The notes below the pieces were generated by a model. It did no database searches. It was given only the letters and a program-made list of their open reading frames with translations, and was not told the DNA's origin. From an uncultured beta proteobacterium (GTDB lineage: Bacteria; Pseudomonadota; Gammaproteobacteria; Burkholderiales; Burkholderiaceae_C): DNA of 64,000 bases. Positions 35,015-60,253 of this stretch are shown here, piece by piece. The position numbers were made by a program, and so were the translations under genes. Every line of letters begins with the position of its first letter. Position 1 is the stretch's first letter. The stretch covers positions 62,001 through 126,000 of the forward strand of contig CAIRAW010000016.1 in the NCBI GenBank assembly GCA_903876735.1, in the 5' to 3' direction.

Positions 35015-35058
35015 TCGTCGATTCGGACGATGTGCGCCAGTTGGCAAGCTGGCATCAT
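35015..35058 (+). promoter_or_regulatory. Regulon site A and -10, racemase operon promoter
   Basis: TCGTC-GATTCG-GACGA (35015-35030) is followed after exactly 22 bp by the -10-like CATCAT (35053-35058). The palindrome centre falls near -42.5 relative to a start seven bases past the hexamer. It drives the racemase/ACAD/ECH operon; the racemase ATG is at 35104. Confidence 0.75.
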
Positions 35059-35103
35059 GGACCCTGAAAATCGCGCATACCGCGTTGAACCAGGAGCATG
35101 CAC

Positions 35104-36192
35104 ATGGCGGGACCGTTGTCAGGATTTCGGATTGTCGAGTTTGCCGGCATCGGGCCGGGACCGTTTTGTGCCATGGTGCTGGCCGATCTGGGCGCCGAGG
35201 TGGTGCGCATTGCGCGCCCGGGCGCCAGGTTGGACCCGAACGACGTGCTGGCGCGCAGCCGCACCGTGCTCCAACTCGACCTGCGGGAACCGCAGGCGCT
35301 GGAGCAGGCCCTGTGCCTGATCGCGCACGCCGATGCGCTGATCGAGGGCTACCGCCCCGGCGTCATGGAGCGCCTGGGACTGGGCCCGGCGGTCTGCAAA
35401 GCACGCAATCCGCGTCTGGTCTACGGCCGAATGACCGGCTGGGGCCAGAGTGGCCCGCTGGCACAGGCGGCCGGGCACGACATCAACTACATCGCCATCA
35501 GCGGCGCCCTGCACGCCATCGGCCGCTCGGGTGAGTCACCGGTGCCGCCGCTCAACTACGTCGGCGACTTCGGTGGGGGTGCCATGCTGCTGGCCGTGGG
35601 CCTGCTCAGCGCTCTGCTGGAGGCTGGTCGCTCGGGACAAGGCCAGGCGGTGGATGCCGCCATGACCGATGGCGCTGCCCTGATGTCGGCCATGATGTAC
35701 GGCATGAAGGCCGCTGGCCGCTGGAGCAACCAGCGCGGCGAGAACCTGCTCGACGGCGGTGCCTACTTCTACGACACCTACGCCTGCGCCGACGGTCGCT
35801 TTGTGGCGATTGGCGCGATCGAACCGCAGTTCTATGCGCTGCTGCGCCAGCACTGCGGCATCGCCGACGACCCGGCTTTTGATGCGCAGATGGACAGTGC
35901 CGCCTGGCCGCTGCTCAAGCTGCGCCTGACCCAGATCTTTCGCAGCCGCACGCGTGACGAGTGGTGCGCGCTGCTCGAAGGCAGCGACGCCTGTTTTGCA
36001 CCCGTTCTGGATTGGGACGAGGCGCCGCGCCATCGTCACAACGCGGCGCGCGCCACCTTCGTCGAACTCGACGGCGTGGTGCAACCGGCGCCAGCACCGC
36101 GCTTTGACCGCACGCCAAACGCCATGCCGGTGCGCAGCTGTGCCGGCACGCCCGAGGCGGTGCTGGCGCGCTGGCGACCTGCTGGCGACTGA
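35104..36192 (+). CDS. Alpha-methylacyl-CoA racemase (family III CoA-transferase fold)
   Basis: A 362-aa enzyme that interconverts (2R)- and (2S)-2-methylacyl-CoA, allowing both isomers into beta-oxidation. [20 protein letters not shown] and [11 protein letters not shown] open the fold. Catalytic residues match the mycobacterial racemase set almost position for position: His125 ([11 protein letters not shown]), Asp155 ([11 protein letters not shown]) and Glu240 ([11 protein letters not shown]). The family Asp nucleophile of formyl-CoA-type transferases is not at its usual site, supporting racemase over transferase. ATG 35104 lies seven bases after AGGAG; ATG 35098 is too close to it. It leads an operon with ACAD and ECH genes behind regulon site A. 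Confidence 0.9.
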
Positions 36193-36229
36193 GTCCTGCT
36201 TCCTTCCCATTTTCCTTTGGACGATTTCC

Positions 36230-37378
36230 ATGCCCATCACCTTTGACCGCTCCTGGAGCGACCCCGACCTGGACCAATACCGCGACACCGTTGTGCGCTT
36301 CATCGAGGAGCACATGCTGCCCGACGACGAGGCTTCGCGCAAACGCGGCCATGTCGGCCACGCGATCTGGCGCAAGGCCGGTGAAACCGGTCTGCTGTGC
36401 ACCGACATCGCGTCCGAGTACGGTGGCGCCGACGGCGACTTCCGCCATGAGGCGGTGTTCTACGAGGAGATGGCAAGGCGCAGCCTGACCGGCATGAACG
36501 CCTCGGTACACTCGATCGTGGCGCACTACCTGTTCAACCACGGCACGCCCGAGCAGAAACGGCGCTACCTGCCGCGCATGGCAGCGGGCGAACTGGTTGG
36601 CGCCATCGCCATGACCGAGCCCGGCACCGGCTCCGATCTGCAGGGCATTCGCACCCGCGCCGATCGCAGCGGCGACGGCTACCTGATCAACGGCTCCAAG
36701 ACTTTTATCTCGAACGGTTTTCTCGCCGGTCTGGTGCTGGTGGTGGCCAAGACCGATGTCAGCCAGGGCGCGCGCGGCACCTCGATTCTGATTGTTGAAA
36801 CGCAGGAATGCCCGGGTTACCGCGTCGGGCGCGTGCTCGACAAGATGGGCATGAAGGCGCAGGACACCTCGGAACTTTTCTTTGACGATGTCCGGGTCAG
36901 CGCCGATCAGTTGCTCGGTGGCAAGGAAGGCGCGGGCTTTTACCAGCTGATGGGTGACCTGCCCTACGAGCGTCTGATCATCGGCGTCACCGCGCTGGCC
37001 GCCATGGAGGGCGCCTACCAGGCCACGCTCGACTATGTGCGCGAGCGCAAGGCCTTTGGCCAGAGCATTGCGGATTTTCAGAACACCAAGTTCCGGCTGG
37101 CCGAGATCGTCACCGAGATCAAGGTCGGGCGCGCCTTTATGGACCGCTGCGTGGAAGACCTGGTGGCGCGCCGGCTTGACACCGCCACCGCGTCCATGGC
37201 CAAGCTCTGGGGCTCCGAGGCGCAGGGCCGCGTGGTTGACAGCTGCGTGCAACTGTTTGGCGGCTATGGCTACATGAACGAGTACCTGATCTCCCGCATG
37301 TACACCGATGCGCGCGTGCAGCGCATTTATGGCGGCACCAGCGAGATCATGAAGGAAGTGATCTCGCGCGCGCTCTGA
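36230..37378 (+). CDS. Acyl-CoA dehydrogenase (first of three)
   Basis: A 382-aa FAD flavoprotein introducing the 2,3-double bond into acyl-CoA. AMTEPGTGSDLQGIRTRADR is the FAD/substrate motif, NGSKTFISNGFLAGLVLVVA follows, and the C-terminal VQLFGGYGYMNEYLISRMY with DARVQRIYGGTSEIMKEVIS holds the catalytic base (Glu of YGGTSE). N-terminal TLVRF-like helix VVRFIEEHMLPDDEASRKRG is typical of the family. It lies 37 bp after the racemase gene and 32 bp before the hydratase. Chain-length preference is not readable, but racemase company suggests 2-methyl-branched acyl-CoA. Confidence 0.93.
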   Translation: MPITFDRSWSDPDLDQYRDTVVRFIEEHMLPDDEASRKRGHVGHAIWRKAGETGLLCTDIASEYGGADGDFRHEAVFYEEMARRSLTGMNASVHSIVAHYLFNHGTPEQKRRYLPRMAAGELVGAIAMTEPGTGSDLQGIRTRADRSGDGYLINGSKTFISNGFLAGLVLVVAKTDVSQGARGTSILIVETQECPGYRVGRVLDKMGMKAQDTSELFFDDVRVSADQLLGGKEGAGFYQLMGDLPYERLIIGVTALAAMEGAYQATLDYVRERKAFGQSIADFQNTKFRLAEIVTEIKVGRAFMDRCVEDLVARRLDTATASMAKLWGSEAQGRVVDSCVQLFGGYGYMNEYLISRMYTDARVQRIYGGTSEIMKEVISRAL

Positions 37379-37410
37379 GCGTTTTGCCGCCATCAGCCAA
37401 AGGACCGCTT

Positions 37411-38202
37411 ATGCAAGACATCCTCGACATCCAGGAAAGTGGCGGCATTGCCCGCCTGACCCTGAACAGGCCGCAGCGCCTCAATGCGCTCAACCCCGCG
37501 CTGGCCACTGCGTTGCGAAATTATTTTCAGGATCTTTACCGCCGCCACGAGCTGCGTGTCGTCATCCTGCAGGGCGCGGGCGCGAGCTTTTGCGCCGGGC
37601 TTGACCTGAAGGAACAACAGCCCGGCAGCGAACTCGGCGCGGTTGGCATGATGGCGGTGCAGCACAGCATCCGCGACATCATGCTGGCCATGCGACGCTG
37701 CCCGCAGCCCATCATCAGCGTGATCCAGGGTGCCGCCAGTGGCGGTGGTTTTGCATTGGCACTGGCCAGCGACATTCGCCTGGCCACACCCGATGCGCGC
37801 ATGAACGCGTCCTTTATCCGCATCGGCCTGACCGGCTGCGACATGGGTGTGAGTTACTTTTTGCCGCGCATGGTTGGCAGTTCGGTCGCCGCCGAATACC
37901 TGTTGACTGGCCGCTTCATGGACGCGCAGCGCGCCTATGCGCTGGGTCTGTACAGCCGCGTCGCGCCGCTGGCCGAACTGCAAGTCGAGGCGCAGGCGCT
38001 GGCCGACGACATGCTGCGCACGACACCGCTGGGGCTGCGACTGACCAAGGAAGCGCTCGGCCATTCGGTTGATGCCGCCAGCCTGGACGCCGTCATTGCG
38101 ATGGAAGACCGCCAGCAGGTGCTGTGCACCCAGAGCGATGACTTCCGCGAAGGCCTGCAGGCCTTTCTGGAAAAGCGTCCGCCGCGTTACAGCGAACGCT
38201 GA
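37411..38202 (+). CDS. Enoyl-CoA hydratase/isomerase (first of three)
   Basis: A 263-aa crotonase-fold enzyme. RLTLNRPQRLNALNPALATA, GAGASFCAGLDLKEQQ (first oxyanion-hole region) and QGAASGGGFALALASDIRLA (second) are present. The next segment reads FIRIGLTGCDMGVSYFLPRM; the Asp-Met there occupies the position of one of the catalytic acids, whereas the usual GAxGE Glu is not obvious at its normal place, so hydratase versus isomerase or other crotonase chemistry is open. ATG 37411 is used rather than TTG 37384. It ends 15 bp before the convergent regulator gene. Confidence 0.88.
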   Translation: MQDILDIQESGGIARLTLNRPQRLNALNPALATALRNYFQDLYRRHELRVVILQGAGASFCAGLDLKEQQPGSELGAVGMMAVQHSIRDIMLAMRRCPQPIISVIQGAASGGGFALALASDIRLATPDARMNASFIRIGLTGCDMGVSYFLPRMVGSSVAAEYLLTGRFMDAQRAYALGLYSRVAPLAELQVEAQALADDMLRTTPLGLRLTKEALGHSVDAASLDAVIAMEDRQQVLCTQSDDFREGLQAFLEKRPPRYSER

Positions 38203-38217
38203 CAGCGCTGTCAGCGC

Positions 38218-40935
38218 TCAGGCGATCAGGCCGAGCCGGCGCGCGATCGCCACCGCCTGCGTGCGGCTGTGGGCACCGAACTTCATGTTGATGTTGCGCA
38301 GGTGCGTGCGCACCGTGCTGTCGGAGACGAACAGCTTCTCCGCCATGGCGCTGTTCGAGTAGCCTTCGACCAGCAGTTGCAGCACGCGGATTTCCTTGCG
38401 CGTGAGCGGCTCCAGCACGGCGCCTAGCAAGTCCGGCGTGGCTTCGATCTCGGTTGGCAGCGGACCAAAGGCCTGCAGCAGGCGCTGCAGGTAGTCGCCC
38501 AGCAGGGGGTCGCGTGTGCGGCCGCTGTCGTGCAGGGCCTGGTAGCGCTGCACCAAGGCACCGACCTCAGGGCCTTCGTCGAGGATCAGGCGCATGAAGC
38601 CTTCCTGGCAGGCAAACTGCAGCGCGCTGCCGATCTCGGTCACGGCGGCTGGCATGTCGCCACTGCGCTGCAAGGCCAGGGCATGCAGCAGGCGCAGCAC
38701 CAGCAGCCGGCGTTGGCGGCCCGCGCCGCTGGCGCGTTTGATTTCAGCGTCGAGCCGGCCCATGCAGGCAGCGGCATCGCCGAACCGGATCTCCCAGCGC
38801 AGCCGTGCCAGCGCCATGTACTGGACCTCATGGGCCAGCAGCCGCTCGCTTTGTTCGCGGCTCCAGAGGGTTGGATCGTCGGCCCGCATCAACTCGTCGT
38901 GGGCTGCCGCTGCGTTGCCTTGCAACTGCAGCATGCGCGCGCGCTCGAGTTTGGCCGCGGCAACAACGCGCGGCAGCTTGCGCTGGCTGCCCAGGTATTC
39001 GAGTTCCGTGATGGCCAGCGATGCCGCGTCCACGTCGCCATTGATGAAGGCGATGCGCGAACGCATGGCGTGGCTGACGATCACGTGGTCTGGCAGACCG
39101 ACATCGCGCGCGATCGGCAGGTAGACGTTGAGCAGGTGCTCGGCCTGGTCGAGCTGGTTGGCTTCAAAGACCACGCAGGCGTAGTAAACGCCGGCCAGGG
39201 CATTGCCGTGGGTGTGCGTCTGGCTCACCGCATGGGTGGCGTCCACCGCCAGCCGAAAGCGCGCCGTGGCCTGGCGCAGTCGGCCCTGCTGCAGATCGAG
39301 CAGGCCTTCGGTGGACTCGGTGTACATGCGGTTGAAGGTGCTGCTGCCGCCTTGCTCGCGCCGCGCCGCGTCCAGCAGTTGCTGGGCTTCGCGCGGGTCG
39401 CCCATCACCGCCAGGTTGTGCGCCATGGCGTTGAGCAGCGTGGTGTCTGCAAACTGGTGACCGGTTGGCAACCGGCGCAGCGCCGCGCGGCCTGTCACCA
39501 GCGCTTCGGCATTGCGGTCCTGCATTGCCAGCAGCATGGGCCGGATGCCATTGGCGTTTGCGCGCAGATAAGGGTCGGCGCTCTCACTGGCGCCGCAGCG
39601 CTCGAGCATCTCCATCGCTTCCCAGGGACCGCGGGTGAAACAGGCGGCCCAGATTGCGATCATCTCGAGTCGCGGGTGCGCCTGGCGCTGAGTCGGCGGC
39701 ATGCTGGCGAACCAGCGCGACAGCAAGCGCATGCGGCCCTGTTCCAGAAAAGCGTCGGCATGGCTGGCGAGCAGACTCATGGCGTGCGGAAAATCGCCGC
39801 CCTCGATCGCATGGTCAATGGCAGGGACCGGCCGACCCTGCGATTCATACCAGCCTGAGGCCGCCAGATGCAGGCGTGCCACATCGTCCGGGTATTCGCG
39901 CTCAAGTTGCGTGCGCAGGTAGTCTGCGAACAGGCTGTGGTAACGCCAGGTGCGTTTCTCACCTGTGACCGGACTCAGGAACAGGTGGTCCGCGTCCAGC
40001 TGTTCGAGCAGTGCCAGGCAGTCGGCGCGTGGATTGAGCGCGGCGCAGACCGAGGGGTCGAGCTGGCGCAGCAGACTGGTGCGCAGCAGAAAGCGCCGCA
40101 CATGGGTCGGCTGGCGCGCCAGCACATCTTCGGCCAGGTAATCGGCCACGGCCCGGCTTGAGCCCGAGAAGCGGTCAACAAAGTCGCTCTGGTCGACCGT
40201 GCGGTCGAGTGCGATGGACGCCAGCCACAAGGCGGTGGCCCAGCCCTCGGTTTTCTGGTGCAGGCGGAACAGCTGCTCGCTGCTCAGGGCGTTGGGCTGG
40301 CGGCGCTGCTCAAAGAGGGTCAGGGAATCCTGCAGGCTGAAGCGCAAGCGGTCGGCGTCGATCTCGGTCAGCAGGCCGCGCACCCGCAGGCGCGCCAGGC
40401 CCAACTGCGGCAGACTGCGCGAGCCGATGATCAGGTGACCATCGCGTGGCAGGTGGTCGGCAATCTCGCGCACCAAGCCGAGCACGGCGGCTTCGTGCAC
40501 GGTTTCGAATTCGTCGAGAAAGAGCGCAAACGGAATCTGGCTGCGCGTCAGCGCCTGCACCGCGTCGACACCGGCGGCGGCGTCGGGACCACCGAGACCG
40601 AGCCTTGTCACGGCTTCGCCCAGGCAGATCATGAAGCGCGAGACATCGTTGTCGGCGCGGTCCAGCGTGAGCCAGACCGTGCTGACGCCAGTTTGCTCCA
40701 GCCGCGCACGCGCCTGCACCATGGCCGTGGTCTTGCCAAAACCTGCTGGCGCGCTGACCAGCACCAACTGCCCGGCGCAACGGCAGATCGCCTCGCACAG
40801 GCCTTGGCGCTGCACCTGTGCCGCCACGGGCGCGGGCGGGTTGAACTTGCTGTCAAGTCCCGCAGAACCGGTTGCAGGTCCGGCTGGTGTGCTGGTGCGC
40901 GCTGGAGCGGGAGGGGGGCGGGAGGAAGCGGGCAT
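38218..40935 (-). CDS. MalT/LAL-type LuxR-family transcriptional activator
   Basis: A 905-aa regulator. GLDSKFNPPAPVAAQVQRQG and the Walker A of SAPAGFGKTTAM (near residue 65) start an NTPase domain, with FALFLDEFETV as Walker B. LRTSLLRQLDPSVCAALNPR begins the winged-helix/ARM part, and a long helical TPR-like repeat region follows (about 400-830). The end holds a LuxR helix-turn-helix: LTRKEIRVLQLLVEGYSNSA, then EKLFVSDSTVRTHLRNINMK. LAL regulators are ATP-dependent activators triggered by a small inducer. ATG 40935 is preferred since the ATG at 41010 lies inside regulon palindrome B; the upstream open frame is not coding. I propose it as the activator of sites A to E. Confidence 0.92.
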   Translation of the reverse strand: MPASSRPPPAPARTSTPAGPATGSAGLDSKFNPPAPVAAQVQRQGLCEAICRCAGQLVLVSAPAGFGKTTAMVQARARLEQTGVSTVWLTLDRADNDVSRFMICLGEAVTRLGLGGPDAAAGVDAVQALTRSQIPFALFLDEFETVHEAAVLGLVREIADHLPRDGHLIIGSRSLPQLGLARLRVRGLLTEIDADRLRFSLQDSLTLFEQRRQPNALSSEQLFRLHQKTEGWATALWLASIALDRTVDQSDFVDRFSGSSRAVADYLAEDVLARQPTHVRRFLLRTSLLRQLDPSVCAALNPRADCLALLEQLDADHLFLSPVTGEKRTWRYHSLFADYLRTQLEREYPDDVARLHLAASGWYESQGRPVPAIDHAIEGGDFPHAMSLLASHADAFLEQGRMRLLSRWFASMPPTQRQAHPRLEMIAIWAACFTRGPWEAMEMLERCGASESADPYLRANANGIRPMLLAMQDRNAEALVTGRAALRRLPTGHQFADTTLLNAMAHNLAVMGDPREAQQLLDAARREQGGSSTFNRMYTESTEGLLDLQQGRLRQATARFRLAVDATHAVSQTHTHGNALAGVYYACVVFEANQLDQAEHLLNVYLPIARDVGLPDHVIVSHAMRSRIAFINGDVDAASLAITELEYLGSQRKLPRVVAAAKLERARMLQLQGNAAAAHDELMRADDPTLWSREQSERLLAHEVQYMALARLRWEIRFGDAAACMGRLDAEIKRASGAGRQRRLLVLRLLHALALQRSGDMPAAVTEIGSALQFACQEGFMRLILDEGPEVGALVQRYQALHDSGRTRDPLLGDYLQRLLQAFGPLPTEIEATPDLLGAVLEPLTRKEIRVLQLLVEGYSNSAMAEKLFVSDSTVRTHLRNINMKFGAHSRTQAVAIARRLGLIA

Positions 40936-41002
40936 GGATCGCAGCAAAGGGTCGAAGGCCGCGCTGGGCGGCTTCAGGGCCAGAGCGTTTGCGCGGGAAA
41001 AG

Positions 41003-41046
41003 CCGTCCATTCGGACGATTTGTTCGCGGATTATGCAGCATACACT
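41003..41046 (+). promoter_or_regulatory. Regulon site B and -10, tesB promoter
   Basis: CCGTC-CATTCG-GACGA (41003-41018) is followed after 22 bp by TACACT (41041-41046). It lies in the gap between the regulator gene and tesB. No -10-like hexamer is found at the same distance on the other strand, so it most likely drives tesB; autoregulation of the regulator is possible but not shown. Confidence 0.72.
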
Positions 41047-41100
41047 GGGGGTGATTGGCGCCCTGCCTGTCACCCTGTTCATTGTCCGAGCCCACCCACC

Positions 41101-41982
41101 ATGACTGCCACCCAAGACCCGCGCCGACTGGCCGCGCTGCACGATCTGATTCAGCAACTCCGCCTGGAGCAACTCGACGAACACCGCTTTCGCGGCGGCA
41201 ACATCGACATTGGCAGCCCGGCCGTGTTTGGCGGTCAGGTTCTGGGGCAGGGCCTGATGGCGGCCGCGCGCACCGTCTCCGGTCAGGGCGTGCATTCGCT
41301 GCACGGCTATTTTTTGCGCGCCGGCGACAAGGCGACCCCGATTGACTATGAGGTGGACGCCGTGCGCGATGGCACCAGCTTCAGCATGCGCCGGGTTGTG
41401 GCGATGCAGCACGGGCGCCCGATCTTTTATATGTCGGCCTCGTTTCACCGCAGCGAGCCTGGCGTCGACCATCAGCGCGAGATGCCCAGCACGCCGCCGC
41501 CTGAAGGCCTGCAGGACGAGCACGAAACCCGCCTGGCGCTGCGCGACCGCCTGCCGGAGGCCGCGCGCGCCGTAGTTGATCAGGCGCGCGCCATCGACAT
41601 CCGCCCCGTTGATCCGCTCGACATGCTGGCACCCGAGCCGCGCCCGCCTTACAACCGGACCTGGATGCGAGCGCACGGCGCCTTGCCGGACGACCCGTTG
41701 ATTCACCAGGCGCTGCTGGCCTACGCTTCCGACTTCAGCCTGCTGCTGGTCGCCATGCGCCCGCACGGCATGACCTTCATGCAGCCCGAGGTGCAGTGCG
41801 TGAGCCTGGACCACGCCATGTGGTTCCACCGCGACTTCCGCTTTGACGACTGGCTGCTGTACGAGACCGATTCGCCCTCGGCCACCGGCGCGCGCGGTTT
41901 TTGCCGTGGCAACCTGTTCAGCCGCGATGGCCGCCTGGTCGCGTCGGTCGCGCAGGAAGGCCTGATACGCCGACGGCGGTAG
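41101..41982 (+). CDS. tesB: Acyl-CoA thioesterase II (TesB)
   Basis: A 293-aa double-hotdog thioesterase that hydrolyses acyl-CoA to free acid and CoA. FRGGNIDIGSPAVFGGQVLG begins the first hotdog, and HSLHGYFLRAGDKATPIDYE follows. In the second hotdog, AYASDFSLLLVAMRPHG carries the catalytic Asp, SLDHAMWFHRDFRFDDWLLY the substrate motif and RLVASVAQEGLIR the Gln. The start is ATG 41101. It is divergent from the activator gene and ahead of the SDR gene, which has its own site C. It may recycle CoA from dead-end branched acyl-CoAs. Confidence 0.94.
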   Translation: MTATQDPRRLAALHDLIQQLRLEQLDEHRFRGGNIDIGSPAVFGGQVLGQGLMAAARTVSGQGVHSLHGYFLRAGDKATPIDYEVDAVRDGTSFSMRRVVAMQHGRPIFYMSASFHRSEPGVDHQREMPSTPPPEGLQDEHETRLALRDRLPEAARAVVDQARAIDIRPVDPLDMLAPEPRPPYNRTWMRAHGALPDDPLIHQALLAYASDFSLLLVAMRPHGMTFMQPEVQCVSLDHAMWFHRDFRFDDWLLYETDSPSATGARGFCRGNLFSRDGRLVASVAQEGLIRRRR

Positions 41983-41991
41983 GTTCGTTTT

Positions 41992-42035
41992 TCGTCGCTT
42001 CGGACGATGCCCTGTTTGTGCGTTCTTCCTAGACT
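41992..42035 (+). promoter_or_regulatory. Regulon site C and -10, SDR promoter
   Basis: TCGTC-GCTTCG-GACGA (41992-42007) is followed after 22 bp by TAGACT (42030-42035). It sits between tesB (stop at 41982) and the HSD10-like SDR gene (ATG 42063). Confidence 0.75.
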
Positions 42036-42062
42036 GGAGGCACAATTTTCAAAGGGTGTCTT

Positions 42063-42845
42063 ATGCAACTCAATTCCAGCATTGCGGCCGTCGTTACCGG
42101 TGGCGCCTCGGGTCTGGGCGCGGCGACGGCGCGCCGCCTGGCTTCTCATGGTGTCAAAGTGGCGTTGTTCGACCTGAACGAAGCCCAGGGCGAGGACCTG
42201 GCGCAGGAGATTGGCGGCGTTTTTTGCAAGGTCGACGTCACCTCCGAGGAACAGGTCGACGCGGCTTTCGCGAAGGCGCGCGCGGCCATCGGCCAGGAGC
42301 GCATCCTGGTCAACTGCGCCGGTACCGGCAACGCCGTCAAGACCGCCAGCCGCGACAAGGCAACGGGCGACATCAAGCATTACCCGCTGGCCAATTTCGA
42401 CCGCATCATCCAGATCAATCTGGTGGGCACTTTCCGCTGCATCGCCAAGTCGGCGGCCGGCATGCTGACGCTCGAGCCGCTGGCCGATGGCGAGCGTGGC
42501 ACCATCGTCAACACCGCATCGGTGGCGGCGCAGGACGGGCAAATGGGGCAGGCCAGCTACGCGGCGAGCAAGGCTGGCATTGTCGGCATGACGCTGCCGA
42601 TTGCGCGCGACCTGATGGGCGAGGGCATTCGCGTCAACACCATTTTGCCGGGCATCTTCAACACGCCGCTGCTGCAGGCGGCGCCCGACAACGTCAAGGC
42701 GGCACTGGCGGCGTCGGTGCCGTTCCCGAAGCGCCTGGGCGCGCCCGACGAATACGCCCACTTGGCCGAGACCATGATCGTCAACGGCTACTTCAATGGC
42801 GAGAGCGTGCGCCTGGACGGCGCCATCCGCATGGCGCCGCGCTAA
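42063..42845 (+). CDS. 3-hydroxyacyl-CoA dehydrogenase type II (HSD10-like SDR)
   Basis: A 260-aa SDR. AAVVTGGASGLGAATARRLA binds NAD, with LFDLNEAQGE giving the Asp for NAD selectivity. The type II hallmark is ILVNCAGTGNAVKTASRDKA, and the insertion in FRCIAKSAAGMLTLEPLADG is characteristic of HSD10-like enzymes. Catalytic residues are Ser in NTASVAAQDGQMGQ and the YAASKAG Tyr/Lys. NTILPGIFNTPLL follows. These enzymes oxidise 3-hydroxyacyl-CoA, including 2-methyl-3-hydroxyacyl-CoA from branched substrates, which suits the racemase in the same regulon. A dedicated promoter (site C) lies 56 bp upstream. Confidence 0.92.
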   Translation: MQLNSSIAAVVTGGASGLGAATARRLASHGVKVALFDLNEAQGEDLAQEIGGVFCKVDVTSEEQVDAAFAKARAAIGQERILVNCAGTGNAVKTASRDKATGDIKHYPLANFDRIIQINLVGTFRCIAKSAAGMLTLEPLADGERGTIVNTASVAAQDGQMGQASYAASKAGIVGMTLPIARDLMGEGIRVNTILPGIFNTPLLQAAPDNVKAALAASVPFPKRLGAPDEYAHLAETMIVNGYFNGESVRLDGAIRMAPR

Positions 42846-42952
42846 GCCCTAAAACCTATCCGACAGGCAGCGGGTGCGGCATTACGTCTACGACTCTTGA
42901 AAAGTGATTGGCCGCAGACACTTTGCTGTCCTTCCCTGTTGTGGTGCTGCGG

Positions 42953-43048
42953 GACGCAGGGCGACATGGCACTCAACTCCGTTCGTGTCCCCCGGCCTTC
43001 GGCCTCCTCCTTTACCTCACTGCGCTGAGCGCCACGCCGCCCTGCGTC
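42953..43048. repeat. 96-bp inverted-repeat (REP/MITE-like) element
   Basis: Left arm GACGCAGGGCGACATGGC (42953-42970) pairs with right arm GCCACGCCGCCCTGCGTC (43031-43048) at 16 of 18 positions. The interior carries a second hairpin in CCCCCGGCCTTCGGCCTCC. No ORF or target-site duplication is evident. The look is that of a non-autonomous or REP-type intergenic element; only one copy is seen in this window. Confidence 0.6.
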
Positions 43049-43158
43049 AACAGGCGGTACAGGTATGCGCTGGGCATTTAACGGACTTCATTCGGTGCAT
43101 ACCAGCACGGCCTGTCGTCGGCACACCCAACCGGGCCAACATCAAGGACGCTGCAAGA

Positions 43159-43181
43159 CAGCACTGGCGGCGTCAGTGCTG
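43159..43181. terminator. Hairpin after the ACAD gene
   Basis: CAGCACTG (43159-43166) and CAGTGCTG (43174-43181) form a perfect 8-bp stem with a 7-nt loop, 11 bases past the ACAD stop on the minus strand. No T-run, so a weak terminator or mRNA-end stabiliser. Confidence 0.45.
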
Positions 43182-43192
43182 GCCGCTAACCC

Positions 43193-44359
43193 CTATCTGC
43201 CAAGCAGCGAGCGCGCCACCAGTTCCTTCATGATCTCGGAGGTGCCGCCGTAGATGCGCAGCACGCGGGCGTCGGTCCAGAAGCGCGAGACCGGGTACTC
43301 GGCCATGTAGCCGTACCCGCCGAACAGTTGCAGGCACTCGTCGGCAACGCGGCAGGCCAGTTCGCTGGCGTGCAGTTTCAGGGCGGATGCGGCCTCGGGC
43401 GTCAGTTCGCCGCGGCGGTAGGCGTCGATGCAGGCATTGCAGAAGGCCTCGGCGGCGGCGATCTGGGTGGCAACCTCGGCAAGCTTGAAGCGTGTGTTCT
43501 GGAACTGCGCGATCGGATGACCAAAGGCCTGACGTTCCTGCACGTAGCGCAGGGTCACGTCGAGCGCACCCTTGGCGCCGTGCAGTCCCTGCACCGCGAT
43601 GATCAGACGTTCGCGCGGCAACTCGCGCATCATCTGCACAAAGCCCTGGCTCTCAGAGCCGCCCAGCAGCGCATCGGCGGGCACCCGCATGTCGTCGAAG
43701 AACAGTTCCGAGGTGTCGCCTGCATGCTGGCCGATCTTTTCGAGGCGGGCGCCGCGGCGCAGGCCCGGCGTGTTGCCGTCGACCAGAAACAGGCTCACGC
43801 CCCGGGCGCCGGCGGCCGGATCGGTCTTGGCTGCCAGCACAAACAGGTCGGCGTTCTGGCCGTTGGAGATGAAGATCTTCGAGCCGTTGATGACGTAGCT
43901 GTCGCCGTCCACGCGCGCATGGGTGCGGATCGCCTTGAGGTCGCTGCCGGCGCCGGGCTCGGTCATGGCAATGGCTGCCACCGCCGTGCCCTGGACCATG
44001 CGCGGCAGCCAGTACTGGCGCTGCGCCTCTGTGCCGAAGTGCAGCAGGTAGGGCGGGATGATGTCGGTGTGCACCTGCATGCCGCCAACAAAGCCGGCGT
44101 AGCCGCGCCGGGAGAGAACCTCGATCACCGCGAACGAAAAATTCACGCTGGCGCCGGCACCGCCATAGGCCTCGGGCACGTCGGCACAGAGAAAGCCCTG
44201 CGCGCCCATCTTGTTGAACAGTTCGCGCGGCACCTGGCCGGCTTTCTCCCAGTCGCGGTAGTGGGGTTCGATCTCGGCGGTGCAGAAACGCTCGAGGGTC
44301 TCAGTAAAGGCGGCCAGTTCGGCGCGTTCATCGGCGGTCAGGAAATGGTTGGTCAGCAT
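43193..44359 (-). CDS. Acyl-CoA dehydrogenase (second of three)
   Basis: A 388-aa FAD enzyme. AMTEPGAGSDLKAIRTHARV, NGSKIFISNGQNADLFVLAA, the FAD-contact VQGLHGAKGALDVTLRY region and LQLFGGYGYMAEYPVSRFW with RIYGGTSEIMKELVARSL, including the catalytic Glu, are all intact. Its C-terminus closely resembles that of the enzyme at 36230, so the two are related paralogues. It is the second gene of a minus-strand operon, 52 bp behind an enoyl-CoA hydratase, expressed from the regulon site at 45244-45259. Confidence 0.93.
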   Translation of the reverse strand: MLTNHFLTADERAELAAFTETLERFCTAEIEPHYRDWEKAGQVPRELFNKMGAQGFLCADVPEAYGGAGASVNFSFAVIEVLSRRGYAGFVGGMQVHTDIIPPYLLHFGTEAQRQYWLPRMVQGTAVAAIAMTEPGAGSDLKAIRTHARVDGDSYVINGSKIFISNGQNADLFVLAAKTDPAAGARGVSLFLVDGNTPGLRRGARLEKIGQHAGDTSELFFDDMRVPADALLGGSESQGFVQMMRELPRERLIIAVQGLHGAKGALDVTLRYVQERQAFGHPIAQFQNTRFKLAEVATQIAAAEAFCNACIDAYRRGELTPEAASALKLHASELACRVADECLQLFGGYGYMAEYPVSRFWTDARVLRIYGGTSEIMKELVARSLLGR

Positions 44360-44411
44360 GGATTCACTCGCAAGGTTTGGGGGTGTTGAACAAATTATCG
44401 GTTGTCGGGGC

Positions 44412-45185
44412 TCAGTCCTGCTGCGCGCGTCCGCGCTGCTGCAGGCCGTCGCGCCGTGCTTCCAGGGCCTCGGGGGTGAGCGTTGCCGCCCATTTGCGCG
44501 AGCGCTGCGCTTCGAGCGCCAGCGCCTCACCCAGCGGCAGGCGCTGGCCGTCGTCAATCAAGCGCTTGTAGGCGCTGACCATGTCGGGCAGCGCGCTGGC
44601 CATGTCCGCTGCCAGCGCCAGCGCTGCCGGTAGCAGGGCCTCGGGCGCCAGCACCCGATTCACCAGACCCCAGCGCTCGGCCGTCGGGGCGTCGATGAAG
44701 TTGCCACTGAAGGCCATCTCCTTGGCGCGCGAGACACCGATCAGTCGCCCGAGCTTTTGCGATAGCCCCCAGCCCGGCATCACGCCGATGCGGGCGTGGG
44801 TGTCGGCAAAACGCGCCGTGCTTGAGGCCAGCAGCACGTCGCAGGCCAGCGCCAGCTCAAAGCCGCCGGTCACGGCCGCGCCGTTGATGGCGCCAATGAT
44901 GGGGTGTGGAAAACGCGTCAGCGCGGCCACCGGATCGCGCTCCGGGCTGCGCGCGGCCAGCCCCTGCTGGCCTAACTCCTTCAAGTCGAGCCCGGCGCAG
45001 AAGGCACGACCGGCGCCCGTCAACACCAGCACGCGCACGCTGGGGTCGCTTGCCAGCGTGTCGAGCGCCTGTACCAGGGCCTGGCGCAGCGCGCCGGTCA
45101 GGGCGTTTAAGGCCTGGGGGCGGTTGAGCGTGAGGCAGACGCAACCGGCTTGCGGACGTTCGATCAGCAATAAGTTCTCATCCAT
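44412..45185 (-). CDS. Enoyl-CoA hydratase (second of three)
   Basis: A 257-aa crotonase. MDENLLLIERPQAGCVCLTL then NRPQALNALTGALRQALVQA, GAGRAFCAGLDLKELGQQGL (oxyanion hole 1) and NGAAVTGGFELALACDVLLA (oxyanion hole 2). The following ARIGVMPGWGLSQKLGRLIG has Gly-Trp-Gly where hydratases usually carry a catalytic Glu, hinting at altered chemistry. The start is ATG 45185. It is first gene of the ECH-ACAD operon, divergent from thiolase with 192 bp between that contain two regulon palindromes. Confidence 0.9.
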   Translation of the reverse strand: MDENLLLIERPQAGCVCLTLNRPQALNALTGALRQALVQALDTLASDPSVRVLVLTGAGRAFCAGLDLKELGQQGLAARSPERDPVAALTRFPHPIIGAINGAAVTGGFELALACDVLLASSTARFADTHARIGVMPGWGLSQKLGRLIGVSRAKEMAFSGNFIDAPTAERWGLVNRVLAPEALLPAALALAADMASALPDMVSAYKRLIDDGQRLPLGEALALEAQRSRKWAATLTPEALEARRDGLQQRGRAQQD

Positions 45186-45214
45186 GGCAATTCCCGGTGG
45201 CAGAACAAACGGGT

Positions 45215-45259
45215 AGTGTGGCCCAGGGCCGGGTCGGGCGTCGTCGTCGAAAGCGACGG
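45215..45259 (-). promoter_or_regulatory. Regulon site D2 and -10, ECH-ACAD promoter
   Basis: Read on the minus strand, CCGTC-GCTTTC-GACGA (45259-45244) matches the consensus with the first-base variant of site B. A weaker -10-like CACACT (45220-45215) follows after 23 bp. It would drive the leftward hydratase/dehydrogenase operon starting at 45185. Confidence 0.55.
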
Positions 45260-45294
45260 ATTCGGTGTCGCACGCGCGCCAGGGCGTTTCAAAT

Positions 45295-45338
45295 TCGTCC
45301 GTTCCGACGACGCTGCCCAGGCTCCGGACGGACAGAAT
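45295..45338 (+). promoter_or_regulatory. Regulon site D and -10, thiolase-liv operon promoter
   Basis: TCGTC-CGTTCC-GACGA (45295-45310) is followed after 22 bp by CAGAAT (45333-45338). The thiolase ATG is at 45378. Confidence 0.75.
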
Positions 45339-45377
45339 CCAGCCACAAACCAATTTACCCATTCACGGAGCCCCATC

Positions 45378-46556
45378 ATGTCTGAAGCCTTTATCGTTGC
45401 CGCCACCCGTACCGCTGGCGGTCGTCGCGGTGGCCGCCTGGCCGGTTGGCACCCAGTTGACCTGTCGGCCCAGGTGCTCAACGCGCTGCTGGACCGCTCC
45501 GGTGTCGACCCCGCTTTGGTCGAAGATGTCTTCATGGGTTGCGTCAGCCAGGCTGGCGAGCAGTCGAACAACGTGGCGCGCAATGCCATCATGGCCTCGC
45601 GCCTGCCCGACTCCGTGCCCGGCACCTCGATCGACCGCCAGTGCGGCTCGTCCCAGCAGGCCGTGCACTTTGCCGCGCAGGCTGTCATGTCGGGCTGCAT
45701 GGACATCGTGATCGCGGCCGGCGTCGAGTCCATGACGCGCGTGCCGATGTTCAGCCCGAGCTACCTGGCGCAGAAGGCCGGTCTGGGTTACTACCAGAGC
45801 GCTGGTATCAACCAGCGCTACAACGACGTCGTGTTCAGTCAGTTCGCCGGCGCCGAGATGATGGCGAAGAAATATGGACTGAGCAAGGACGATCTCGACC
45901 GCTTCGCGCTGCTGAGCCATCAGCGCGCCATCGCGGCAACCCAGGGCGGTGCCTTCAAGGCCGAAATCCTGCCGGTCGCCGTGCGCTCCCCTGAAGGCGT
46001 GGACACGGCTGACATGCACACGGTGGACGAGGGCATCCGCTTCGAAGCCACCTTGCCGGGCATCCAGAACGTCAAACTGCTGCAGGAAGGCGGCGTGATC
46101 AGCGCCGCCAATGCCAGCCAGGTTTGCGACGGCGCAACCGGTGTCATGGTGGTGAGCGAGCGCGGCCTGAAGCTCCTCGGCGTCAAACCGCTGGCGCGCA
46201 TCCATCACATGTCGGTGATCGGCCACGATCCGGTGATCATGCTGGAAGCACCGATCCCGGCCACCGAGCGCGCGCTCAAGAAAGCCGGCCTGAAGATCGA
46301 CGACATCGACCTTTACGAAGTGAACGAGGCTTTCGCCTCGGTTCCGTTGGCCTGGCTCAAGGCGCTGGGCGCGGATCCGGCGCGACTCAATGTGAACGGC
46401 GGCGCCATTGCCTTGGGCCATCCGCTGGGTGCTTCGGGCACCAAGCTCATGACCACGCTGATCAATGCCCTGGCGCAGCGCGGCAAGCGCTATGGTCTGC
46501 AGACCATGTGCGAAGGCGGCGGCATGGCCAACGTCACCATCATCGAACGCCTTTAA
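45378..46556 (+). CDS. Acyl-CoA thiolase (acetyl-CoA acetyltransferase family)
   Basis: A 392-aa thiolase cleaving 3-oxoacyl-CoA. Cys89 in SIDRQCGSSQQAVHFA is the acyl-carrying nucleophile, NEAFASVPLAW holds the Asn of the oxyanion site, GGAIALGHPLGASG the catalytic His and CEGGGMANVTIIERL the proton-shuttling Cys. Its N-terminus FIVAATRTAGGRRGGRLAGW is typical of FadA/PcaF-like degradative thiolases. It is the first gene of a five-gene operon with livG, livF, livH and livM, an unusual coupling of the last beta-oxidation step to uptake. Confidence 0.94.
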   Translation: MSEAFIVAATRTAGGRRGGRLAGWHPVDLSAQVLNALLDRSGVDPALVEDVFMGCVSQAGEQSNNVARNAIMASRLPDSVPGTSIDRQCGSSQQAVHFAAQAVMSGCMDIVIAAGVESMTRVPMFSPSYLAQKAGLGYYQSAGINQRYNDVVFSQFAGAEMMAKKYGLSKDDLDRFALLSHQRAIAATQGGAFKAEILPVAVRSPEGVDTADMHTVDEGIRFEATLPGIQNVKLLQEGGVISAANASQVCDGATGVMVVSERGLKLLGVKPLARIHHMSVIGHDPVIMLEAPIPATERALKKAGLKIDDIDLYEVNEAFASVPLAWLKALGADPARLNVNGGAIALGHPLGASGTKLMTTLINALAQRGKRYGLQTMCEGGGMANVTIIERL

Positions 46557-46577
46557 TCCTTTTCGGAAAACTCGCTC

Positions 46578-47384
46578 ATGGCCAATGCACAGAGTGACAG
46601 CAGCGCGGGCGCGTTGCTCCAGGTGGACGAAGTTACCGTTCGGTTTGGTGGCATTCTGGCGCTCAACAAGGTCAGCTTTGACGTGCAGGCCGGCGAGATC
46701 TGCGCGCTGATCGGGCCCAATGGCGCCGGCAAAAGTACGCTGTTCAACTGCCTGTCGCGCCTCTACGAGTGCGACAGCGGCAGCATCGCCTTCAATGGCT
46801 ACAAGCTGCGCTCGCTGCGGCGCCATCGCATCGCCGAAATCGGGATCGGCCGCACCTTCCAGAATCTGGCGCTGTTTCGCACGATGACCGTGCGCGAAAA
46901 CGTGCTGCTGGGCAGCCACAGCCGGCACCATGCGGGCTTTGTACGCAATGCGTTTCGCCTGCCCGGTGTCGCGCGCATCGAGGCGGCGGCGCAGGGGCGG
47001 GCCGATGACCTGATGGACTTTTTGCAGTTGGGGGAGCACGCCGAGCGTGTTGTCGCCGATCTGCCCTTCGGCACGCAAAAACGGGTTGAGCTGGCGCGTG
47101 CGCTGGCCTCGGAGCCGCAGTTGCTGCTGCTCGATGAGCCGGCTTGCGGCCTGAACCACGAGGAACTGGAAAGCCTGGGCCTGTTGATTCGCGACATCCG
47201 TGACCGCCTGAATGTCACGGTGCTGCTGGTGGAGCACCACATGGGTCTGGTCATGGGTATTTCGGACCGCGTGGTCGCGCTCAATTTCGGCAAGAAGATT
47301 GCCGAAGGAACGCCGGCCGAGGTGCGTCAGCACCCGGAGGTGATCCGCGCCTACCTTGGTGAAGCAGAGGAGAAAGCACAATGA
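46578..47384 (+). CDS. livG: ABC importer ATPase LivG (second Liv system)
   Basis: A 268-aa ATPase. Walker A GPNGAGKSTLFNCLSR, the LivG-specific IGRTFQNLALFRTMTVREN, a signature with PFGTQKRVELARALA in place of LSGGQ, and Walker B LLLLDEPACGLNHEE. It ends VIRAYLGEAEEKAQ. The degenerate signature is common in LivG. It follows thiolase by 21 bp and overlaps livF by ATGA. The membrane-bound ATPase pair would drive uptake of the acid handled by the surrounding acyl-CoA genes. Confidence 0.94.
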   Translation: MANAQSDSSAGALLQVDEVTVRFGGILALNKVSFDVQAGEICALIGPNGAGKSTLFNCLSRLYECDSGSIAFNGYKLRSLRRHRIAEIGIGRTFQNLALFRTMTVRENVLLGSHSRHHAGFVRNAFRLPGVARIEAAAQGRADDLMDFLQLGEHAERVVADLPFGTQKRVELARALASEPQLLLLDEPACGLNHEELESLGLLIRDIRDRLNVTVLLVEHHMGLVMGISDRVVALNFGKKIAEGTPAEVRQHPEVIRAYLGEAEEKAQ

Positions 47385-48097
47385 GCCGTCTGCTTGAAGC
47401 CAGAGGATTGCACGCCCGCTACGGCAACACGCGCGTGCTGCACGGCATCGACCTCAATGTCGACGAGGGCAAGGTGACAACGCTGCTCGGGGCCAACGGC
47501 GCCGGCAAGACCACGACCTTGCGGGCGCTGTGCCGCCTGATGGTTCAGGCCAGTGGCAGCGTGAGCTTGGGTGGAACCCGGATTGACAATCTGTCAACCG
47601 AGCAGATCGCCCGCCTGGGCGTTGGCCATGTGCCCGACGGGCGTGGCACTTTCCTGGGCCTCACGACAGAAGAGAACCTGCGCCTGGGCGTCTATTCGCG
47701 CAGCAGACGCAGTGGCGCCGAGCAGGACCTGGCGCGCGTCTATGACTACTTTCCTCGCCTGGCCGAGCGCAACCGCCAGCAGGCCGGAACCCTGTCGGGT
47801 GGCGAGCAGCAAATGCTGGCCATCGGTCGCGCACTGATGGGCCGGCCGCGCCTGCTTTTGCTTGACGAGCCCTCGTTTGGACTGGCGCCGCTGGTGGTCA
47901 AGGACATCTTTGCCATCATGCGCCGCATCAACCAGGAGGAGGGCGTCTCCATCCTGCTGGTCGAGCAGAACGCGAGTCTGGCACTGGGCCTGGCCGACAC
48001 GGCTTACCTGCTGGAGACTGGCCGTATCGTGCTGTCGGGCTCGGCTGCTGACATGCGCAACAACGATGCCGTGCGTCGTGCCTATCTTGGCGAATAG
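47381..48097 (+). CDS. livF: ABC importer ATPase LivF (second Liv system)
   Basis: A 238-aa ATPase with GANGAGKTTTLRAL, the Q-loop VGHVPDGRGTFLGLTTEENL, signature TLSGGEQQMLAIGRAL, Walker B LLLLDEPSFGLAP and end DAVRRAYLGE. The ATG overlaps the livG stop by ATGA. It partners with LivG on the LivH/LivM channel encoded next. Confidence 0.95.
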   Translation: MSRLLEARGLHARYGNTRVLHGIDLNVDEGKVTTLLGANGAGKTTTLRALCRLMVQASGSVSLGGTRIDNLSTEQIARLGVGHVPDGRGTFLGLTTEENLRLGVYSRSRRSGAEQDLARVYDYFPRLAERNRQQAGTLSGGEQQMLAIGRALMGRPRLLLLDEPSFGLAPLVVKDIFAIMRRINQEEGVSILLVEQNASLALGLADTAYLLETGRIVLSGSAADMRNNDAVRRAYLGE

Positions 48098-48109
48098 GAG
48101 TCCACTGCA

Positions 48110-48982
48110 ATGAACGAATTCCTGCATCAACTGGTGGCTGGCCTGGCCACCGGTGGCATTTACGCCAGCGTGGCGCTGGCCCTGGTGATGATTTACCAGG
48201 CCACGCACCACATCAATTTCGCGCAGGGCGAAATGGCCATGTTTTCCACCTTTGTCGCCTGGGCACTGATCGAAGCCGGTCTGCCCTACTGGGGCGCATT
48301 TGCGCTCACCGTGTTGATCTCGTTTGTGATCGCTATGGTGATTGAATTTGCCGTGATACGGCCGATGCACAACGCGCCAGAGTTGTCGGTGGTGGTGGTC
48401 TTCATTGGCCTGCTGGTGATCTTCCACAGCCTGGCTGGCTGGCTGTTTGGTTACACCATCAAGTCGTTCCCGAGTCCGTTTCCGGCCAATGCCTGGTATG
48501 GCTCGGAGCTGATGTCGGCGCACCAGGTCGGCGCCATCGTCGTCGCCCTGGTCATGGTCGCTTTGCTGTTTTCGTTTTTTGCTTTTACGCCGATCGGCCT
48601 CGCGCTCAGGGCTGCGGCGCAGAACGCGCCGTCCTCGCGCCTGGTGGGCATCAACGTCGGGCACATGCTGATGCTGGGCTGGGGCCTGGCCGGTGCGATC
48701 GGCGCGGTCGCCGGCATGATGGTGGCACCAGTGGTATTTCTGGACCCAAACATGATGACCGGTGTCCTGATCTACGCCTTTGCCGGCGCGCTGATTGGCG
48801 GCATCGACAACCCGGTGGGCGCCGTGCTCGGCGGCTTCATTGTGGGTGTTCTGGAAAACCTGATCGGCACCTATGTCGTTGGCACCGAACTCAAGCTGTC
48901 GGTGGCCCTGGTGCTGATTGTTGGCGTGCTGATCGTGCGTCCGTCCGGTCTGCTGGGCCGAAAAATTGTGACCCGGGTTTGA
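48110..48982 (+). CDS. livH: ABC importer permease LivH (second Liv system)
   Basis: A 290-aa permease with about eight membrane segments. GGIYASVALALVMIYQATHH with INFAQGEMAMFSTFVAW is the LivH start (Gln replaces the usual His of NFAHG). AAAQNAPSSRLVGINVGHML and AGALIGGIDNPVGAVLGGFI are the coupling-helix region. It is 12 bp after livF and 3 bp before livM. Confidence 0.94.
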   Translation: MNEFLHQLVAGLATGGIYASVALALVMIYQATHHINFAQGEMAMFSTFVAWALIEAGLPYWGAFALTVLISFVIAMVIEFAVIRPMHNAPELSVVVVFIGLLVIFHSLAGWLFGYTIKSFPSPFPANAWYGSELMSAHQVGAIVVALVMVALLFSFFAFTPIGLALRAAAQNAPSSRLVGINVGHMLMLGWGLAGAIGAVAGMMVAPVVFLDPNMMTGVLIYAFAGALIGGIDNPVGAVLGGFIVGVLENLIGTYVVGTELKLSVALVLIVGVLIVRPSGLLGRKIVTRV

Positions 48983-48985
48983 ACC

Positions 48986-49978
48986 ATGAATCAGCCAATC
49001 AAAACCCATCTTTCCCCACGCAGCGCCGCCGGCCTGTCCTTGCGCTGGGTTCTAGTGCTGTTGGCCTTGGCCGTGGGACTGGCCTTTGTCGCCAAGGGCT
49101 ACCACCTGTTTCAGGCGACCATGGTGCTGGCCTATGCGATTGCCCTGCTGGGACTGAACATCCTGACCGGTTACAACGGACAGATTTCGCTCGGCCACGG
49201 CGCCTTCTTTGCTCTGGGTGCCTACGTCGCTGCCATTCTCATGGAGCACGCGGGCGCGCCCTATTGGGCCACTGTTCCGGCGGCCGGCGTGTTCTGCCTG
49301 ATCGTCGGTTACCTGTTTGGCCGGCCGGCCTTGAAGCTCGAAGGCTTGTACCTGGCGTTGGCCACCTTTGCGCTGGGTGTGGCCATGCCGCAACTGCTGA
49401 AATACAAGCACCTCGAAGCCTGGACCGGTGGTGTACAAGGCATTGTGCTGATGAAGCCTGACGCACCCTTTGGTCTTCCCTTGACGCAGGATCAGTGGCT
49501 TTACCTGTTTGCGCTCCTGGTTGCGGTTGTGATGTTTGTCATCGCGCACAACCTGCTGCAAAGCGGCAGCGGTCGCGCCATGCGCGCGATCCGCGACCAC
49601 GCCATGGCGGCTGAAGCCATGGGCATCGACAACCGCCACTACAAATCGATGAGTTTTGGCGTTTCGGCCGCCTATACCGGCGTTGGTGGCGCCCTGTCGG
49701 CGATTGCCGTGCAGTTTGTTTCGCCCGATTCGTTCACGCTGTTCCTGTCGATCTCACTGCTGGTCGGGATTGTGGTTGGCGGCGTTGGCACGCTGTGGGG
49801 TGCCTTCTTCGGCGCGCTTTTCATCATGTTCGTCCCGAACATGGCGGAAAAGGTTTCCAAAGCCGCTCCTTGGGCGGTTTACGGCGTGGTGCTGATCGCC
49901 ATCATGTTTGCCATGCCCGGCGGTGTCATGGGGCTGCTGCGCAAGATCCGACAGCGCCGCAACGAGCGTAGCGGCTGA
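48986..49978 (+). CDS. livM: ABC importer permease LivM (second Liv system)
   Basis: A 330-aa permease. After a polar N-terminus come alternating helices with ILTGYNGQISLGHGAFFALG, the LivM hallmark, then GRPALKLEGLYLALATFALG and YKSMSFGVSAAYTGVGGALS. VGGVGTLWGAFFGALFIMFV is near the end, followed by a basic tail RKIRQRRNERSG. It is the last gene of the thiolase-livGFHM operon. The cognate binding-protein gene begins after a separate regulated promoter at 50002. Confidence 0.94.
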   Translation: MNQPIKTHLSPRSAAGLSLRWVLVLLALAVGLAFVAKGYHLFQATMVLAYAIALLGLNILTGYNGQISLGHGAFFALGAYVAAILMEHAGAPYWATVPAAGVFCLIVGYLFGRPALKLEGLYLALATFALGVAMPQLLKYKHLEAWTGGVQGIVLMKPDAPFGLPLTQDQWLYLFALLVAVVMFVIAHNLLQSGSGRAMRAIRDHAMAAEAMGIDNRHYKSMSFGVSAAYTGVGGALSAIAVQFVSPDSFTLFLSISLLVGIVVGGVGTLWGAFFGALFIMFVPNMAEKVSKAAPWAVYGVVLIAIMFAMPGGVMGLLRKIRQRRNERSG

Positions 49979-50001
49979 GGCGCGACACCAGCGCGCCAAA
50001 T

Positions 50002-50045
50002 TCGTCAGTTCCGACGATGCTGTAAGGGCCTGGCCTGCCTACCAT
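50002..50045 (+). promoter_or_regulatory. Regulon site E and -10, binding-protein operon promoter
   Basis: TCGTC-AGTTCC-GACGA (50002-50017) is followed after 22 bp by TACCAT (50040-50045). The binding-protein ATG is at 50118. This starts the operon that includes ligase, APH kinase, ACAD and ECH genes. Confidence 0.75.
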
Positions 50046-51341: not shown

Positions 51342-51358
51342 AACTCGGGCGATTGCCC

Positions 51359-51388
51359 TGATGGCGCAGGGGCTTGCCTGCGCCATCA
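51359..51388. terminator. Intercistronic stem-loop after the second livK
   Basis: TGATGGCGCAGG (51359-51370) and CCTGCGCCATCA (51377-51388) form a perfect 12-bp stem with a 6-nt loop, 17 bases after the binding-protein stop and 35 bases before the ligase ATG. No T-run follows immediately. It likely limits downstream expression or protects the binding-protein mRNA end. Confidence 0.65.
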
Positions 51389-51423
51389 ACCACCGTCACA
51401 ACGCCTTTTCAAGGAGAGAAAAC

Positions 51424-53064: not shown

Positions 53065-53075
53065 TCGGAACCCAG

Positions 53076-54113: not shown

Positions 54114-54123
54114 GAGCTTTCCC

Positions 54124-55371: not shown

Positions 55372-55385
55372 AATCTGGAGTCACC

Positions 55386-60212: not shown

Positions 60213-60253
60213 GCATCCGGTCTTTTCTCCACCTGTATTGAAGGGTTGCTGCC

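Follow-up and report, generated by a model that had tools for sequence, protein, structure and literature searches.

A probable palindromic operator and its predicted LAL-type activator in an acyl-CoA gene cluster of an uncultured Burkholderiales bacterium

Six palindromes in a LAL-containing gene cluster

We analysed a stretch of 64,000 nucleotides from an uncultured beta proteobacterium, hereafter the window (C16:62001-126000 of genome G000, which comprises 82 contigs and 3.9 Mb and is 97.8 % complete). The window carries a cluster of genes whose predicted products are a CoA-ligase, acyl-CoA dehydrogenases (ACAD), hydratases, a short-chain dehydrogenase (SDR), a thiolase, a thioesterase, a racemase-like enzyme and a Liv-type importer. 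Among them lies the gene of a 905-aa LuxR-type protein of the LAL family, and six copies of the palindrome [T/C]CGTC-N2-TT[C/T][C/G]-GACGA precede the transcription units (Table 1). From sequence comparisons, we consider it very probable that all six palindromes act as operators of a single acyl-CoA/organic-acid pathway regulon, activated by the LAL encoded within it.

Table 1. Operators, -10-like hexamers and genes of the predicted regulon (window positions; ECH, enoyl-CoA hydratase)
Feature	Position	Strand	Remark
Operator TCGTCGATTCGGACGA	35015..35030	+	before CoA-transferase-III (racemase-type) gene; sites also before orthologous AMACR genes
Operator CCGTCCATTCGGACGA	41003..41018	+	before tesB, in the divergent tesB/LAL gap
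Operator TCGTCGCTTCGGACGA	41992..42007	+	before SDR gene
Operator CCGTCGCTTTCGACGA	45244..45259	-	before ECH2-ACAD2; ECH2 also preceded by sites in loci L076 and L081
Operator TCGTCCGTTCCGACGA	45295..45310	+	before thiolase-livGFHM
Operator TCGTCAGTTCCGACGA	50002..50017	+	before livK-ligase-kinase-ACAD3
-10-like CATCAT	35053..35058	+	22 bp after operator at 35015..35030
-10-like TACACT	41041..41046	+	22 bp after operator at 41003..41018
-10-like TAGACT	42030..42035	+	22 bp after operator at 41992..42007; frequent in relatives
-10-like CACACT	45215..45220	-	23 bp after operator at 45244..45259
-10-like CAGAAT	45333..45338	+	22 bp after operator at 45295..45310
-10-like TACCAT	50040..50045	+	22 bp after operator at 50002..50017
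905-aa LAL/MalT-type predicted activator	38218..40935	-	P-loop motif, MalT-like TPR, LuxR HTH
CoA-transferase family III (racemase-like)	35098..36192	+	opens unit 1, which continues with ACAD1 and ECH1 up to 38202
Acyl-CoA thioesterase II (tesB)	41101..41982	+	
SDR	42063..42845	+	
ECH (44412-45185) and ACAD (43193-44374)	43193..45185	-	
Thiolase, livG, livF, livH, livM	45378..49978	+	livF named from place and sequence, not from family scans
livK, acyl-CoA ligase, ACAD11-type kinase, ACAD, ECH	50118..56264	+	

An initial annotation of the window had proposed the six palindromes, and every one matches the pattern exactly at the positions and on the strands it gave. The distances from operator to start codon are, in site order, 67, 82, 55, 58, 67 and 100 bp. 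The genome-wide search that the annotation had recommended returned eight exact matches, six of which are the window operators. The two others fall within long reading frames whose translations look fadB-like and molybdopterin-oxidoreductase-like, so a wider regulon in this genome was rejected at the level of exact matches. The reversed control pattern gave three matches in the whole genome.

The LAL protein contains a MalT-like tetratricopeptide repeat (TPR) region at residues 464-799 (PF17874) and a LuxR-type helix-turn-helix (HTH) at residues 843-898 (PF00196, GerE). A P-loop motif, GFGKTT, is visible in the sequence, and matches to AAA/STAND NTPase families are weak and under their cut-offs. 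This is the architecture of LAL/MalT-type STAND proteins, with about 900 aa, an N-terminal P-loop, a TPR sensor and a C-terminal LuxR HTH. The closest solved relative is MalT (8bob, E 4.5e-37), and the score against the MalT equivalog NF003420 (NCBIfam), 326 bits, stays below the cut-off of 537. Control of the LAL gene by its own product from the palindrome at 41003-41018 was rejected as unsupported, since no -10 hexamer was seen by eye on the LAL side of that site. A LAL paralogue with 31 % identity is encoded at G000:C55:76875-79475, and the operator is absent from the 17.6 kb fetched around it.

Abundance of the palindrome and co-occurrence with the LAL gene

We scanned all 1024 five-base arms at spacings of 0-20, i.e. 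21,504 combinations, with expectations derived from 5-mer counts. TCGTC-N6-GACGA ranked first of the 21,504 in the 64-kb window (four copies, 0.11 expected) and likewise in the part between 30 and 56 kb (0.08 expected). Allowing up to two mismatches, the window holds 12 matches, compared with 2.6 expected from 100 dinucleotide shuffles, the largest of which gave seven. The perfect arms were also found in 42 of 43 LAL loci with at least 43 % identity, counted over the fetched stretch including coding sequence, with L037/L077 and L038/L075, which are pairwise the same genomes, counted once each. Five permuted control arms together occurred once across all loci of this comparison.

The distribution of the sites follows that of the LAL gene, where genomes were classed as LAL-free if they gave no LAL match at E 1e-100. 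Within the genus, a LAL of at least 88 % identity is present in 3 of 60 genomes, and these are exactly the three with clustered sites (8, 3 and 4). The 57 LAL-free genomes contain 24 scattered sites; these belong to 19 genomes, none with more than two. Within the family, a LAL at E 1e-100 or better was found in 36 of 399 genomes; five or more sites occur in 18 of these 36 and in 2 of the 363 LAL-free genomes (counted by eye). One of the two exceptions owes its sites to a repeat array of 70 copies, and the five sites of the other are spread over five contigs. The array itself (G434:C2:2976495-2981362) repeats CCGTCATTTCTGACGA 70 times, every 69-73 bp; it has the appearance of a long CRISPR array with a repeat that fits the pattern by chance.

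A further contrast was seen at the thiolase promoter. Of the 29 orthologous thiolase places in LAL genomes, 22 have an upstream site (one mismatch allowed), and of the 16 in LAL-free genomes none has (Fisher one-sided p ~4e-7, calculated by hand and not corrected for kinship). The 29 places come from 28 LAL genomes, as G175 has two, and the upstream stretches spanned 300 bp or about 450 bp. The palindromes therefore do not persist before this gene where the activator gene is missing; the initial annotation had named such persistence as a refutation of its proposal. The SDR orthologue with at least 81 % identity is present in 26 genomes, and all 26 encode the LAL.

The second refuting condition of the annotation, a lack of conservation before orthologous promoters, did not apply either: the conservation extends to rearranged gene orders and to another family of the order. 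Sites are present in all eight named orthologous loci (two uncultured beta proteobacteria, three Hydrogenophaga metagenome-assembled genomes, Variovorax KBW07, Ramlibacter WS9 and Paraburkholderia elongata). Across the family they precede the racemase-like gene, tesB, SDR, thiolase, livG, livK, ECH2 or ACAD1, and the gene orders vary. Among the 100 genomes searched in the wider set, G492 was the single additional genome with a LAL besides G000 and G173. G492 belongs to another family of the order, and its LAL has 54 % identity; one of its 20-kb stretches has seven perfect-arm matches and the following stretch has two.

These figures bear on the alternative view that CG-rich palindromes arise by composition in a genome of high GC content. 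The window has a GC content of 62.7 %, and LAL-free genomes do contain isolated sites. However, the 57 LAL-free genomes of the genus have fewer sites than matches to the reversed control (24 vs 38, summed by hand). Together with the first rank among 21,504 combinations, the clustering, the conservation and the co-occurrence with the LAL, this leaves chance a practically negligible explanation.

The operator does not extend to LALs in general. No enrichment of the TCGTC/GACGA arms was seen near LALs of 28-39 % identity: TCGTC-N6-GACGA is absent from L113, L114, L248-L251, L253 and L255, and the single copy in L252 and the two in L254 are far from first rank. Generality to all LALs was thus rejected. 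In L249 and L255, whose LALs have 28-29 % identity, another palindrome, GCGGA-N5-TCCGC, is over-represented with four and five copies, respectively, and is perhaps the operator of that LAL group.

Promoter geometry, operator centre and recognition helix

The hexamers downstream of the six operators have the form YANNNT. We assembled 88 TT-oriented intergenic sites, leaving out flipped ones, and thinned them by similarity to 73. The best -10-like hexamer starts 22 bp after the operator in 30 of the 73 sites and 23 bp after it in 31. At least three matches to TATAAT at one of these two offsets are present in 65 sites, while other adjacent pairs of offsets give 0-14. The mean best -10 score at 22/23 bp is 3.47, and the maximum over 2,000 shuffles was 1.93. 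The fixed spacing of 22 bp proposed in the initial annotation thus holds for the five plus-strand sites and was rejected as a rule, 22 and 23 bp being equally common in relatives. The spacing of 23 bp given for the minus-strand hexamer was also right; CACACT, which had been taken for a weaker element, is an ordinary member of the 22/23 class among relatives.

In the 12 sites inspected, the region 17 bp before the -10 shows no TTGACA-like hexamer. No further half-site recurs at a fixed place between -120 and +100 (at most 3 of 73 sites). If transcription starts 6-7 bp after the hexamer, as in general promoter geometry, the operator would be centred at about -42.5 or -43.5. In class II geometry a LuxR-type operator lies near -42, and the present sites share with class II LuxR-type promoters a palindrome near this position, a near-fixed distance to the -10 and, as far as the 12 inspected sites go, the lack of a good -35. 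In L236 (position 1920), L238 (1858) and L242 (7037) a single palindrome is flanked on either side, at 22-24 bp, by a -10-like hexamer, and might there serve two divergent promoters.

The near-constant spacing and, in the 12 inspected sites, the missing -35-like hexamer suggest a promoter that needs an activator. They argue against the view that the LAL binds the same sites as a repressor and is displaced by an inducer. A precedent for such a role exists in the LAL SCO6993, which is described as a palindrome-binding repressor (PMC9628970). Given the near-constant 22/23-bp distance to YANNNT hexamers, we regard repression as highly improbable here, and activation as the likelier action of the LAL.

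The LAL proteins and their operators can be compared between three clades. B and C each form a fully supported monophyletic group, and B is nested inside A. Clade A has the recognition stretch SDSTVRTHLRNI or a close form of it, and its operator centre is mostly TT/AA (NNTTYN). Clade B LALs (47-51 % identity) have ADTTVRTHLRHI and clade C LALs (43-45 % identity) AETT[VI]RTHLRNI; the helix comparison excludes L086 and L099, which stop short of the HTH, and L041, which is translated out of register in that region. Both B and C retain the TCGTC/GACGA arms, with centres such as GGATRC or SGGAGC instead of NNTTYN. Recognition helix and operator centre thus shift together between clades while the arms stay constant. 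TCGTCGGATNNGACGA was found in every one of the seven genomes of clades B and C. Over all LAL genomes it is present in 16 of 36, and among the LAL-free genomes tested in 2 of 36. The GGATRC centre occurs in 4 of 4 clade-C genomes, 2 of 3 clade-B genomes and one more LAL genome (G433), and in none of the 36 LAL-free ones. G180 encodes one clade-A and one clade-C protein, each with a matching operator nearby, and in L097 a LAL of 44 % identity that retains SDSTVRTHLR is accompanied by clade-A-type sites.

The arm and spacing scan again placed TCGTC-N6-GACGA first of 21,504 in the pooled clade-A loci (54 copies, 1.2 expected; 20 of 36 loci, hand-picked), in three clade-B loci (10 copies, 0.15 expected) and in four clade-C loci (9 copies, 0.31 expected); these pooled figures are descriptive because orthologous loci are not independent. 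The central TT of the annotated pattern stands as a preference. The need for it was rejected in view of flipped sites before the thiolase (G196 and G246) and the SDR gene (G411) and of the other centres in clades B and C.

The joint shift of helix and centre also speaks to another possibility, namely that a different regulator travelling with the cluster binds the sites and the LAL acts elsewhere. Many acyl-CoA clusters are controlled by TetR proteins, and a TetR domain lies some 6.4 kb downstream of the livK operator. It forms the start of a single 761-aa frame at 56466-58751 (+), in which a TetR repressor (TetR_N, TetR_C_24) is joined to an AMP-dependent acyl-CoA ligase, possibly a natural regulator-enzyme fusion. 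However, the frame matches other loci at only 28-35 % identity (a comparison in which unlisted regulators at those loci were not searched for), and in the five loci with a printed query start the matches begin in the ligase part. The stretches that follow in G028, G007 and G173 contain no match to it above 100 bits. The near-fixed -10 spacing moreover fits an activator, and we consider control by another regulator improbable.

Conservation, the thiolase-promoter contrast and the co-shift of helix and centre support the LAL as predicted activator, as the initial annotation had it, and several comparative tests back it as the regulator. A number of observations weigh against this assignment. Related genomes are not independent of one another, and a single locus can be unremarkable, as in L097, where the two copies fall outside the top eight combinations. 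MalT itself uses direct repeats. The operator centre does not follow the clades strictly, as eight clade-A genomes also carry TCGTCGGATCGGACGA (the GGATCG form), and we therefore read it as a preference and not as a strict code. The LAL of L110 (51 %) keeps the SDSTVRTHLR helix, yet its 20 kb contain no site. Seven of the 29 thiolase places in LAL genomes are without a site; in four of them the thiolase follows the SDR gene and in one the contig offers only 348 bp upstream, which leaves two (G138 and G141) unexplained. A site was found within 300 bp upstream of the SDR gene in only 15 of the 26 orthologues.

Known systems, proposed mechanism and predicted pathway

The system is of a known kind, because AlkS is a LAL-type activator with an inverted-repeat operator (PMC8784404). 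AlkS of Pseudomonas putida GPo1 and Alcanivorax is likewise a MalT-type LuxR catabolic activator with an upstream inverted repeat; as described there, this repeat has 20 bp and lies at PalkB and PalkS2, whereas here 16 bp precede six acyl-CoA units and no LAL self-control was seen (compared by published description). With Escherichia coli MalT, the LAL shares a nucleotide-binding region, MalT-like TPR and LuxR HTH in the same order, and the MalT box, given as GGA[TG]GA (PMC9628970), resembles the operator arm GACGA. However, the literature describes MalT sites as direct repeats (PMC6099782), with four at malPp800 (PMC10427625), whereas here each promoter has one inverted repeat and the direct-repeat arrangement of MalT boxes is not seen. 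With LuxR/NarL/GerE class II activators the LAL shares the Pfam HTH family (GerE) and a palindromic operator near -42; unlike them, it showed no response-regulator or autoinducer domain in the family scan.

By analogy with MalT, we assume that an inducer and ATP would drive oligomerisation of the LAL. Two LuxR-type HTH domains of the oligomer would then bind both arms of TCGTC-N6-GACGA. With the operator centred about 42.5-43.5 bp before the start, the bound LAL would occupy the -35 position and assist RNA polymerase at a YANNNT-type -10, in the manner of a class II activator on one symmetric operator near -42.5. An acid or acyl-CoA belonging to the pathway probably serves as the inducer.

A broader proposal is tentative and, taken as a whole, less likely than not. 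A Burkholderiales clade of MalT-type STAND regulators would have an operator logic of its own, in which a single symmetric TCGTC-N6-GACGA replaces direct-repeat boxes. Its arms would be fixed, and the favoured centre and the helix clade-specific, so that two regulators can coexist, as in G180. Some operators would serve two divergent promoters, and an acyl-CoA of the pathway, possibly a 4-hydroxy- or 2-methyl-acyl-CoA, would act as the effector.

Among the matches listed in our literature searches, which covered few subscription papers, we found no published description of this regulon or operator. As far as these searches go, the operator and the widely conserved regulon appear to be new; activation by a LAL via an inverted repeat is already known. 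To our knowledge, few operators have been defined for LAL regulators. The family has been called poorly studied (PMC3282765). One LAL clade now gains a clean candidate operator, a promoter geometry and a regulon predicted for more than 30 genomes. Diverged LAL/operator pairs become available for recognition studies, and binding of STAND activators to arrays or to single palindromes becomes directly testable.

Two further features of the neighbouring genes were recorded. After the regulon, at 58896-62121 (+), the translations reveal a second livK-livH-livM set without a matching operator. Within the livK unit, the stand-alone kinase at 53079-54113 (+) is similar to the kinase part of ACAD11 (8v3v, E 4.5e-70) and adjoins an acyl-CoA dehydrogenase, so that the pair resembles a bacterial ACAD10/11 split over two genes. 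Since phosphorylation of 4-hydroxyacyl-CoAs has been reported for ACAD10 and ACAD11 (PMC11342911), the ACAD11-like kinase provides a lead, rather than a result, that 4-hydroxy acids may enter the pathway.

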